Assembly: GCF_008271655.1 (NCBI RefSeq)
Contig: NZ_VKKX01000006.1
Coordinates: 1-48,818 of the forward strand
Direction of reading: 5' to 3'
From: Gemmobacter caeruleus
GTDB taxonomy: Bacteria; Pseudomonadota; Alphaproteobacteria; Rhodobacterales; Rhodobacteraceae
DNA length: 48,818 bases
Below the pieces are notes generated by a model. That model saw only the letters and a list, made by a program, of their open reading frames with translations. It ran no database searches and was not told where the DNA came from. Position 1 is the stretch's first letter. The number at the start of each line of letters is the position of its first letter. This document shows positions 36,212 through 38,888 of the stretch, one piece after another. The position numbers and the translations under genes are program-made.

Positions 36212-36436
36212 TCATCTGGCGCTCCGCATCCAGATCGCCTCGAACACCCGCCGCAGGACGTAGGACCGCGCGATGCTCACCACCGTGAACACCGCGCCCA
36301 TCTTCAGGTTCTGCGCCAGCGTCGTGTGCAGCCCGAAGACCGGGAAGATCAGGATCTGCGTGACGACAGCGACGCCATAGCCGACGATCACGTTGGCCAC
36401 GGACTCGACCAGCGACATGAGGCGGCTCTGCTTCAT
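36212..36436 (-). CDS. DUF7220 phage membrane protein
   Basis: A 74-residue protein with two membrane segments: SLVESVANVIVGYGVAVVTQ and LKMGAVFTVVSIARSYVL, ending RRVFEAIWMR. It belongs to a small family (DUF7220) common in phages of alphaproteobacteria. Its ATG (36436-36434) overlaps the TGA of the second-frame ORF inside the methyltransferase gene, not the methyltransferase stop, which is 13 nt further up. Confidence 0.8.
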   Translation of the reverse strand: MKQSRLMSLVESVANVIVGYGVAVVTQILIFPVFGLHTTLAQNLKMGAVFTVVSIARSYVLRRVFEAIWMRSAR

Positions 36437-36987
36437 GCTGGCACCCCGTCATCCATCGGCCAACAGTTCAGCTGCCAGAGTTCGCAGCGCATGCGCAGCA
36501 ACCAGGGGGACCACGCCGTTGCCACAGAGGCGAAGCCGGTCCACCCGGTGGGCCAGCCCATCAGCGCCTCGACGAACAGCGGGTTCAAGGTCCGGCGCGC
36601 ATCGGAGGTATCGCGCCCAGCCATCGGCGTCGTGAGGACCTGGCGGCCAAGCAGGCCGTTCACCGGCGTGTTCGCAAGGCTCGTCGCCCCGTCCTTGTGG
36701 TCGCGGGCCGTCGGCGTCATCCACAGTCCCGCCGAATGGGTCAGGTCGGCTGAGCGGCGGTTGCCAGCACTCGGCTTGCAGCCATCGTTCGCCATCGGCG
36801 TCGGCCAGAGCGCTGCCGTCGTCGCGAGGTTCATCCCGTGCTGACCGGCTTCCTGCGACGGAGTCGGCTTCGTCTGCCGGTTCTCGTTGGCACTGGCCCT
36901 CGGCGTCGGCCAAAGCCGCATCATCTCCGTCCGGTTGCCGCCACTCGAGCGGGTGCCAGAGCAGGCGCGCGGGGTCGGCCAGATCAT
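36433..36987 (-). CDS. Second-frame ORF overlapping the cytosine methyltransferase gene
   Basis: A 184-codon frame on the same strand as the methyltransferase. It carries repeated WPTPxA units (WPTPRACSG, WPTPRASANEN, WPTPMANDG, MTPTARDHKDG, TTPMAGRD) and then LNPLFVEALMGWPTGWTGFA with a basic, tryptophan-rich end. The late motif is one I know from small phage proteins annotated beside cytosine methylases. The TGA overlaps the next gene's ATG as ATGA, the coupling used throughout this prophage. The frame is open back to 37962; ATG 36987 is the first start before the repeats and its ribosome site is poor. Whether it is made alone or by frameshifting is unknown. Confidence 0.5.
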   Translation of the reverse strand: MIWPTPRACSGTRSSGGNRTEMMRLWPTPRASANENRQTKPTPSQEAGQHGMNLATTAALWPTPMANDGCKPSAGNRRSADLTHSAGLWMTPTARDHKDGATSLANTPVNGLLGRQVLTTPMAGRDTSDARRTLNPLFVEALMGWPTGWTGFASVATAWSPWLLRMRCELWQLNCWPMDDGVPA

Positions 36988-37546
36988 CCCCCTCGCGGAT
37001 CGCGAGGATGAACAGCCGCTCGCGCTTGTGGGGCGCGCCGACTTCCGCCGCCGTGAAGAGGCCTGCCGCAAGGCGGTAGCCCATGCCGACCAGTCCTGCG
37101 GCGACTTCGGGGAAGCCGAGGCGGAGATGATGGGCGACATTCTCGAGGAAGACGAAGGGCGGCTCAACCTCGCCGATGATGCGGGCGACATGCGGCCAGA
37201 GGTGGCGCGGGTCGTCGGCGCCCCGGCGCTTGCCCGCGACGGAGAACGGCTGGCACGGATAGCCCGCAGTAACGATATCCACCGCGCCACGCCACGGGCG
37301 GCCGTCGAAGGTTCCAACGTCGTCCCAGACAACAGCCTGATCCAGGGACGCATCTTCCATCCGCGCCACGAGAGCTGCTGCGGCGAAGGTTTCCCGTTCG
37401 ACATGGCCCACAGCACGATATCCGGGGATGGCGATGGCGAGCCCGAGGTCGAGACCGCCCGCGCCGGAGCACAGGGAGAGGCCGAAGAGGCATGCGTCTC
37501 CGGCCCCGGAAGCGTCTCCGGAGGAAGGTACAGCCAAGTCATGCAT
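36449..37546 (-). CDS. DNA (cytosine-5-)-methyltransferase
   Basis: A 365-residue C5 cytosine methylase. Motif I is LSLCSGAGGLDLG (about 23-35), motif IV GYPCQPFSVAG with catalytic Cys98, motif VI FLENV (133-137), motif VIII KRERLF (174-179) and motif X CGNGVVPLVAAHA near the end. Between VIII and X lies an unusual repetitive stretch with LADAxGxR-type units (LADPARL, LADAEGQ, LADADGE). The target sequence is unknown; phage enzymes of this kind protect DNA from restriction. ATG 37546 follows the upstream stop as TGACATG; an in-frame ATG at 37597 is less likely. Confidence 0.93.
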   Translation of the reverse strand: MHDLAVPSSGDASGAGDACLFGLSLCSGAGGLDLGLAIAIPGYRAVGHVERETFAAAALVARMEDASLDQAVVWDDVGTFDGRPWRGAVDIVTAGYPCQPFSVAGKRRGADDPRHLWPHVARIIGEVEPPFVFLENVAHHLRLGFPEVAAGLVGMGYRLAAGLFTAAEVGAPHKRERLFILAIREGDDLADPARLLWHPLEWRQPDGDDAALADAEGQCQREPADEADSVAGSRSARDEPRDDGSALADADGERWLQAECWQPPLSRPDPFGGTVDDADGPRPQGRGDEPCEHAGERPAWPPGPHDADGWARYLRCAPDLEPAVRRGADGLAHRVDRLRLCGNGVVPLVAAHALRTLAAELLADG

Positions 37547-37547
37547 G

Positions 37548-38888
37548 TCACGCGGCGGGTTCGGGTTGGGGTTCGTGTCTGGCCCGGGTTTCTCCAAGCC
37601 GCTCGACCGTCACTTGCGCGAAAGTCCGGCCGTCTCCGTCGAGGATTGCGTCGCGGCCGGTCTCGGCCTGCCAGCGTTCCACGGCGACATCGACATAGGC
37701 CGGACTGATTTCCATTGCGAAGACGCGACGGCCATTGGCCTCGCCCGCCATGATCTGCGAGCCCGAGCCTGAGAACGGCTCGTAGCAGAGGCCGCCTCGG
37801 GCAACGTGCTGGCGCATCGGGATCCCGAAGGCGTCGAGCGGCTTCGGCGTCGGATGGTCGGGCCGGTCGTCCTTTGCGAAGCTGGGCAGCGCCCATGTCG
37901 ATGGCAGCGTTTCCTCGGCCACCTTCGGCGGGCGGTTCGGGCGGCGCCAGCCCATGAAGCAAGGCTCGTGCTTCCAGAGGTAATGCGACCGGGTCAGAAC
38001 CCCGCGGTCCTTCACCCAGATGATCTGTTGATGGACGAAGGCACCCGCCTTTTCCCAGCAGGCTTCCAGCATCGCCTGGCGGCGCGAGGCGTGCCAGCAG
38101 TACCAGGCCGCGTCTTCGGCGATGGCCTCGGCGACCGCCGCAGCGATGAAGCCGTCGTAGAGTTCCGCACCCTGCGAGCTGTCATCCCAGGTCGTGCCGT
38201 AGGACGCAGACCAGTCCTTGTTGCGGGTAGGATGGTTCGAGCCGTCGTAATCCACCAGATACGGCGGGTCGGTGGCGAACAGGATCGCCCGCTCGCCATT
38301 CATCAGACGGCGCACATGGGAGGCGCTGGTGCTGTCACCGCAGAGCAGGCGGTGGTCGCCGAGTATCCACAGGTCACCAGTGCGCGAGGCCGGATTGCGC
38401 GGCGGTTCGGGGATGGTCACCGGCGGCACGGAGCCCCCGGCGCCACCTTCTTCACCGTCGTCTTCCGCGACGTAGGCCAGCAGCTTGTCGAGTTCGCCGT
38501 CCGAGAAGCCGACCAGCGACAGGTCGAAATCCTCGGCCAGCAGATCGTTCAGTTCCGCCGACAGCAGCGCCTCGTCCCAAGTGCCGAGTTCCGTCAGTTT
38601 GTTGTCCGCGATCCGGTAGGCCCGGCGCTGCGCCTCGGTCAGGTGCCCGAGCACGATGACCGGCGCCTCGGTCAGCCCGAGCTGCGTGGCGGCCAGCACG
38701 CGTCCGTGGCCCGCGATGAGCTCGCCGTCCTCGGCCACGAGGCAAGGCACGGTCCAGCCGAACTCGGCCATGCTGGCGGCGATCTTTGCGACCTGGTCCG
38801 CGCCATGCGTTTTCGCATTGCGGGCGTAGGGCTGGAGCTTGGCCAGCGGCCACATCTCGACCGCGTCCGGGGCGAAGGTCAGCGTCAT
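37548..38888 (-). CDS. ParB-like nuclease domain / DNA adenine-type methyltransferase fusion
   Basis: A 446-residue protein. Residues 1-140 form a ParB/Srx-type domain (LQPYARNAKTHGADQVAKIA, GELIAGHGRVLAATQLG). Residues about 170-430 are an amino-methyltransferase: catalytic DPPY at 207-210, and the cofactor motif EPFSGSGSQIMAGE at 370-383. Order (catalytic motif before cofactor motif) indicates the beta class that methylates adenine N6 or cytosine N4. Such fusions are common in phages and may modify phage DNA. It lies directly before the cytosine methylase, giving two modification enzymes in a row. Confidence 0.92.
   Translation of the reverse strand: MTLTFAPDAVEMWPLAKLQPYARNAKTHGADQVAKIAASMAEFGWTVPCLVAEDGELIAGHGRVLAATQLGLTEAPVIVLGHLTEAQRRAYRIADNKLTELGTWDEALLSAELNDLLAEDFDLSLVGFSDGELDKLLAYVAEDDGEEGGAGGSVPPVTIPEPPRNPASRTGDLWILGDHRLLCGDSTSASHVRRLMNGERAILFATDPPYLVDYDGSNHPTRNKDWSASYGTTWDDSSQGAELYDGFIAAAVAEAIAEDAAWYCWHASRRQAMLEACWEKAGAFVHQQIIWVKDRGVLTRSHYLWKHEPCFMGWRRPNRPPKVAEETLPSTWALPSFAKDDRPDHPTPKPLDAFGIPMRQHVARGGLCYEPFSGSGSQIMAGEANGRRVFAMEISPAYVDVAVERWQAETGRDAILDGDGRTFAQVTVERLGETRARHEPQPEPAA

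Follow-up and report, generated by a model that had tools for sequence, protein, structure and literature searches.

Can one run of bases be kept by selection in two reading frames of the same strand, and if so, do the two frames encode unrelated proteins or parts of a single enzyme? The question is raised by a prophage cytosine methyltransferase gene in the window, the 48,818-nucleotide stretch of Gemmobacter caeruleus DNA analysed here, for which an earlier note made from the sequence alone had proposed that two overlapping same-strand frames are both conserved, either through overprinting or through a frameshifted C-terminus. Substitution rates specific to each class of change, the avoidance of stop codons relative to codon shuffles and a survey of relatives selected on the methyltransferase frame all bear out the conservation of both frames. 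We argue below that the locus most probably encodes a split cytosine-C5 DNA methyltransferase, written as two nearly co-extensive genes in frames 0 and +1. Dual coding, the conservation of the second start codon, the avoidance of stops and the breadth of the family can be read directly from the relatives, and it is with these that most of the following is concerned.

Throughout, frame 0 is called alpha and the +1 frame beta, and positions within the locus are given as idx, the distance from alpha's first base (window position 37546, minus strand), so that the window position equals 37546 - idx. The beta gene is almost co-extensive with the alpha frame, and alpha consists of motifs I-VIII and X with an unconstrained spacer in between (Table 1). 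The two start codons form an ATGCATG that sits directly past the TGA of the upstream gene, which ends 1 nt ahead of alpha's ATG. At the other end, the TGA of beta (36435-36433) shares an ATGA with the ATG of the downstream gene (36436), and the TGA of alpha (36451-36449) lies 13 nt ahead of that ATG. The LADP/LADA units of alpha (36982, 36913, 36808) and the WPTP units of beta (36981, 36912, 36807) are read from the same bases, one nucleotide apart. The shared bases of the repeats, the ATGA overlap and the earlier stop of alpha had all been described correctly from the sequence. The upstream gene joins a ParB-like N-terminal part to an N4/N6-methyltransferase, such that two methyltransferase genes are stacked at this place.

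Table 1. Features of the alpha/beta locus and its neighbours, in window coordinates
Feature	Position	Strand	Evidence
Upstream gene: ParB-like + N4/N6-methyltransferase	37548..38888	-	PF01555, phrog_498
ATGCATG: alpha start 37546 and beta start 37542, 4 nt apart	37540..37546	-	
alpha: predicted C5-cytosine methyltransferase subunit, 365 aa	36449..37546	-	PF00145, phrog_363, AF2
beta: 369-aa gene in the +1 frame with WPTP repeats and a motif-IX-like block	36433..37542	-	phrog_1008, frame-specific constraint
beta N-terminus TWLYLPP, beta-constrained, alpha-free	37519..37539	-	substitution rates idx 7-28
alpha-constrained segment, motifs I-VIII; beta largely kept open	36983..37486	-	rates idx 60-540
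alpha motifs I, IV, VI, VIII	I from 37489; IV 37258-37241; VI 37150-37136; VIII 37030-37010	-	
Nearly invariant block right after the constraint switch	36959..36981	-	per-position diversity idx 565-587, 121 sequences
beta-constrained segment: WPTP/WMTP/LTTP units, then LNPLFVEALMGWPTGW (36588-36541)	36536..36981	-	rates idx 591-945
alpha motif X region, LCGNGVVP 36529-36506	36452..36535	-	substitution rates
Downstream gene, DUF7220	36212..36436	-	PF23858 E 1e-34

Alpha is readily recognised as a cytosine methyltransferase, matching PF00145 (E 4e-31, residues 23-189) and phrog_363 (E 5e-57), and its catalytic core with motifs I-VIII is present, the elements PCQ, ENV and KRERLF being found in the sequence; for the motif numbers I-X and for the usual pattern of motif IX we use what we take to be the standard scheme. 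In its AF2 model, whose fold matches M.HaeIII and M.HhaI, the catalytic part is confident and pLDDT lies under 50 at residues 197-307, inside the beta-constrained segment. The best stretch of the alpha profile on M.HhaI covers chain residues 12-217, which is the N-terminal part only. A recognition domain and motif IX were sought in the alpha chain, and no LxP...MGxP block was seen in its sequence; the middle of the chain is unconstrained and predicted to be disordered over the low-confidence residues. Single-chain C5 enzymes normally carry their recognition region and motif IX where alpha is unconstrained.

The full beta protein matches phrog_1008 (E 4e-19, beta residues 92-336, profile 42-280 of 329). 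The shorter shifted piece delimited in the earlier note matches phrog_27243 as well as phrog_1008, with no match in Pfam or NCBIfam. The possibility that phrog_1008 is a family of single-chain enzymes was dropped, as it turned out to be the beta family itself. For full-length beta there is no match in Pfam or the PDB and none of its profile to solved structures, and AF2 gives beta alone a pLDDT of 49 with no confident fold, a model too poor for a structure search. The motif-IX-like LNPLFVEALMGWPTGW conforms to the usual motif IX pattern, though a profile comparison matched it to no solved enzyme; across 54 sequences its residues L134, P136, L142, M143, G144 and P146 vary hardly or not at all. 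Because beta has no Pfam or PDB match and its lone model is poor, the role that we assign to it, that of recognition region plus motif IX, is a probable one drawn from pattern and from complementarity with alpha. The recognition-like repeats that had been noticed in the shifted frame are indeed present, as the WPTP units of the beta-constrained segment.

Relatives were gathered by similarity to the shifted protein, with 80 loci from viral contigs and 80 from titled genome contigs (mostly Rhodobacteraceae by name, e.g. Gemmobacter, Tabrizicola and Paracoccus), and this choice of the 160 loci by beta similarity means that the sample favours an intact beta; 394 family genomes, 68 of which had a match, supplied further beta-similar loci. 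A complete alpha is present in 156 of the 192 collected loci; 59 of these alphas are as long as the window's and 97 differ from it in length. The relatives fall mainly into two length classes, since 93 of those 97 have 84 additional nt, and as this number is divisible by three both frames are preserved. After deduplication there were 43 sequences of window length and 77 of the longer class, in which each nearest-neighbour substitution was classed by its effect in each frame; paired rates below refer to the 43-set and the 77-set in that order.

Between idx 60 and 540, changes that are silent in alpha and alter beta occur at 0.144/0.148, against 0.036/0.032 for changes that alter alpha and are silent in beta. 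In the middle of the gene (idx 591-945, or -1029 in place of -945) the relation is inverted, with 0.211/0.224 for beta-silent, alpha-changing substitutions and 0.020/0.028 for the reverse, so that the sign by which the earlier note would have recognised a by-product of the methyltransferase repeats, a shifted frame broken by stops or with a dN/dS near 1, is not what idx 591-945 displays (0.020 vs 0.211). Beta-silent changes that would make an alpha stop are held to 0.009/0.018 there; alpha is thus free in sequence and yet open to about idx 945. An LNP...GW block in this segment is constrained in both frames, and the constraint around motif IX likewise falls on both. Alpha is constrained again in the motif X region, where alpha-silent, beta-changing substitutions reach 0.151/0.128 vs 0.021/0.037 for the reverse. 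The freely varying codon position moves from alpha's third to beta's third at window position ~36982 and is back by motif X, and in the window's own sequence the base composition of the codon positions shifts in the same sense. The first flip is sharp, with alpha third positions variable to idx 563 and fixed right after, and with a 23-nt block (idx 565-587) that shows hardly any variation among 121 sequences. The return to alpha constraint is gradual, spread over ~idx 900 to 1020 in the window-length set.

Upstream of the switch, most of the beta frame is weakly constrained in the window's clade. Alpha-silent changes in this clade go down to 0.045-0.047 at idx 120-186 and 405-480, a drop that fits beta constraint at these two places. 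It was also observed that alpha's silent positions vary unusually little at 37426-37360 and 37141-37066, where rare codons persist (e.g. CTT at idx 474 in 121/121), which may reflect constraint on beta.

Both frames avoid stops. When the synonymous codons of the other frame are shuffled, 75 alpha stops are expected in the middle of the 43-set and 215 in that of the 77-set, and 0 and 2 are seen; the third frame there has more stops than predicted (208 vs 173 and 379 vs 322) and is interrupted by a stop within the overlap in 43/43 and 77/77 sequences. In three segments upstream of the switch, beta stops number 0, 2 and 0 in the 43-set vs 26, 14 and 0.3 expected, and 2, 0 and 1 in the 77-set vs 52, 18 and 1.6, although the depletion is unspecific in part: the third frame, too, is about 1.4-3.6 fold under prediction there. 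Three of 120 sequences have a beta stop ahead of the switch (L005, L120 and L095), and two more have one at idx 1, ahead of beta's ATG. Two beta stops at idx 823 and alpha stops in L030, L166 and L174 also break the pair in some relatives.

Where beta begins bears directly on what it is. The shifted frame had been described from 36987 onward, and while it is open there as claimed, its extent had been misjudged, as the gene starts at 37542: the beta-frame ATG at idx 4 is found in 152/152 loci and in 121/121 distinct loci, though the base that precedes it (idx 3) varies, and a start codon at 36987 is possible in at most 6/121 relatives (idx 560 = T in 6/121). The codons that follow belong to beta, for in the window's clade beta-silent, alpha-changing substitutions at idx 7-28 occur at 0.123 vs 0.013 for alpha-silent, beta-changing ones, over a beta N-terminus that reads MTWLYLPP. 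With the +4 ATG and a beta-coded N-terminus found, the start at 36987 was dropped, as were the conserved in-frame codons at idx 406 and 475; just upstream of the constraint switch the relatives share no conserved beta start codon. In 102/102 relatives examined, a TGA is found no more than about 8 nt ahead of the start pair. No clear Shine-Dalgarno sequence precedes ATGCATG in most of the contexts listed (GAGG occurs in a minority), and restart by coupling is assumed on that account. A three-sequence, three-family comparison for the window type gave z about 4 in codons 100-186 and no excess of beta conservation in codons 1-55.

The same architecture recurs in a divergent family of 22 loci, which has the start geometry [G/A]TGAATG in 22/22, a beta N-terminus of MAWCHVPGTDCPSAQ or close variants, and, in 21/22, a +1 frame that encodes LNPLFVGWLMGWP or differs from it by one letter. 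It exhibits the same constraint flip, with 0 alpha stops seen vs 39 expected; constraint on its N-terminus is not decisive, as idx 7-33 holds 6.5 beta-silent vs 6 alpha-silent changes (0.112 vs 0.073). Two loci of this family lie in the window's own genome (L002, C13:9750-10247, and L003, C4:44538-45104). A search of 388 family genomes with alpha only gave strong matches in 47, of which the best 30 loci were kept, 29 with a complete 5' end. The NTGNATG pair, and with it the +4 ATG, is present in 29/29 of these, and by motif search both frames are intact in 25/29, alpha to motif X and beta to motif IX. Among the other four, two have an intact alpha only, one an intact beta only, and one (L407) long ORFs in which neither motif was found.

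Beyond this group, viral contigs were scanned with four alphas, three of which returned 137 loci in total; the scan with the alpha of a Synechococcus phage found no relatives. The ORF that matches the beta profile lies in the +1 frame in 97 of the 137, in the +2 frame in 2 and in the same frame in 1; 34 have no beta-profile hit and 3 no alpha hit. The 34 comprise 11 Lactobacillus-type relatives, 8 of which among those listed carry a 184-aa +1 ORF ending in MGFPKGWTDLK plus one residue, one locus (L246) with an ORF ending in MGFPEGWTAA, 16 without motif X (two weakly matching ORFs of 447 aa, the other 14 being short, ~190-200 aa), and 6 that end at a contig edge. Loci L248-L261 hold shorter cytosine-methyltransferase-like ORFs without motif X, and the representatives listed (e.g. 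L248, L251, L252) have a +1 ORF of 135 aa with strong anti-Shine-Dalgarno pairing ahead of its ATG. A motif-IX block in the alpha frame was seen at a sole viral locus of the 137 (L225 1459-2397), in which motif X was not found.

In most of the viral loci listed, which range from 39 to 63% G+C, beta begins ~0.17-0.2 kb inside alpha. Taking the first start codon of the +1 ORF in at least 90 loci, some of them short or truncated, mean anti-Shine-Dalgarno pairing is -5.9 vs -2.5 for background, and it is below -4 in 73% vs 24%. For 12 pairs drawn from 25 loci of the Lactobacillus clade, weighted changes that create a beta stop number 9.5 before beta begins (about 119 sites), 0 within the N-terminal half of beta (about 195 sites) and 1.5 within the WPTP-IX part (about 129 sites). 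In a second clade the N-terminal half is likewise free of them (0 on about 74 sites); its WPTP-IX part has 7 on about 72, from pairs that are far apart and were aligned on alpha. Across 19 divergent alphas, beta is more conserved than alpha and codon usage account for, its identity or similarity exceeding codon shuffles with z 12-26 in codons 60-160, values that relatedness can inflate and for which codons 1-45, at z 0.8-2.5, serve as control; codons 45-60 give -0.1 for similarity and 4.4 for identity.

Annotation in the records inspected has mostly caught one half of the pair. Of five annotated phage records from outside Paenibacillus, four list alpha but not beta, and the fifth lists a piece of beta but not alpha. 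In Komagataeibacter phage phiKX1 (L194 1756-3402) a 549-aa methyltransferase ORF is unannotated and the annotation covers the beta piece only. The Paenibacillus larvae phage records listed have two features under the match in some cases and one in others, and both of the records examined annotate alpha and beta. Two rows for DNA-cytosine methyltransferases appear in the accessible part of PMC6070908.

Could two conserved frames be had without a split enzyme? Beta might be made and selected as an independent protein, such as a regulator or an anti-restriction factor, laid over an otherwise complete methyltransferase, and its lack of any recognised domain and of a confident lone fold would suit such a role. 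We hold this to be improbable, since alpha has no constrained recognition region or motif IX, beta has repeats and a motif-IX-like block at just that place with alpha's motif X following, and the two occur together in 25/29 loci selected on alpha. The data support two proteins from overlapping frames, but a new function overprinted de novo is not borne out; the frames look like the parts of one enzyme. Nor does the locus resemble a product of GC-rich codon usage, in which CTG GCC GAC GCC reads LADA and the next frame WPTP, and in which GC-rich frames lack stops. The repeats do share bases and the G+C of alpha is 0.69, but phage loci with a G+C of 39-50% contain the same pair, the silent position moves from one frame to the other, the many alpha stops expected from codon shuffles are missing in relatives, and the beta-stop counts of the Lactobacillus clade contradict it also; we regard the chance of this explanation as negligible.

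Other readings would draw one chain from both frames. A programmed +1 frameshift near 36982, joining the N-terminus of alpha to the WPTP frame, would account for a sharp constraint switch followed by a nearly invariant 23-nt block, and for the want of a conserved beta start codon just upstream. It was set aside because the +4 ATG and a beta-coded N-terminus were found, the latter in the window's clade, and it now seems very unlikely: fewer beta stops than expected lie upstream of the switch (0 vs 26, 2 vs 14), if partly for unspecific reasons, beta has a separate ATG of its own inside alpha in other phages, often with a Shine-Dalgarno sequence, and the product of a shift would be without motif X. 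The frameshifted C-terminus that the earlier note had offered is not supported. A single chain that changes frame several times (beta, alpha, beta, alpha), always tracking the constrained frame, would mirror the alternation of constraint along the gene. We give it hardly any credence, as such a chain has no need of an alpha free of stops in the middle, where beta is constrained, a gene with three or more programmed shifts is implausible, and beta in other phages forms an ORF to itself, bounded by its own start and stop.

Under the split-enzyme reading that we prefer, and as the conserved sequence suggests, ribosomes that end the upstream gene at its TGA would restart at either of the two ATG codons 4 nt apart and so produce both chains. 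Motif X and the catalytic, SAM-binding core (motifs I-VIII) would come from alpha, and motif IX with the recognition-like WPTP region from beta. Each chain would have a stretch of little sequence importance in which the code of the other dominates and selection keeps stops out, and the two would assemble into one DNA-methylating enzyme, its subunit assembly, methylation activity and target being what we infer. We lean, with the balance tipping only a little in its favour, to the further view that NTGNATG behind one terminating ribosome is a device for splitting initiation between the frames, which would set the subunit ratio of one enzyme, and that in each protein a long stretch is under selection chiefly to remain free of stops, the DNA there being taken up by the other protein. 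If this device reading is true, few functional gene overlaps in bacteria would be as complete as this one, which would extend over the prophages of many genera.

Phage methyltransferases of a widespread group seem to depend on a second protein encoded in another frame of their own gene, and in most of the records inspected one of the two proteins has no annotation. Recoding alpha for expression would abolish beta and, were the model true, yield an inactive product, and target prediction from alpha would use the wrong frame. The switch of the silent position, together with stop avoidance without conservation of residues, also makes this a clean natural case of information sharing in overlapping genes.

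How does the pair compare with systems already known? PHROG 363 and 1008, matched by the window's alpha and beta respectively, are both labelled DNA methyltransferase, and the entries listed make no mention of an overlap. Among the matches listed in a literature search, the accessible text holds no description of this alpha/beta overlap, and the accessible parts of PMC8008677 and PMC5009743 do not describe it. In the Paenibacillus larvae phage pairs (Kiel007 KIEL007_52/_53 and Shelly SHELLY_55/_56, the Shelly record carrying the note 'g55 internal gene') beta is likewise nested in alpha, but the annotated beta begins about 0.2 kb inside alpha and not at +4. M.EcoHK31I reportedly consists of chains of 309 and 176 aa, the smaller read in another frame inside the large gene. 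Unlike that small gene, as it is said to lie, beta here has 369 aa and starts 4 nt after alpha. By constraint and motifs, under the numbering we assume, alpha carries I-VIII and X. The large subunit of M.EcoHK31I (YGGCCR) carries the same set and its small subunit motif IX, according to the accessible part of PMC3404938, which also speaks of inactive C5-enzyme fragments able to complement. That part places the predicted recognition domain of M.EcoHK31I in the large subunit, whereas the corresponding part of alpha is unconstrained and the conserved repeats are on beta. It describes M.AquI (CYCGRG) as likewise a C5 enzyme split into two subunits, but with motifs IX and X on the small one, whereas X lies in the alpha frame here and is constrained there. 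By analogy, the pair is best read as a split enzyme of the M.EcoHK31I type, with I-VIII and X on alpha and a putative IX on beta; what is new is that the overlap is nearly complete, that the start codons are paired and that the family is broad.
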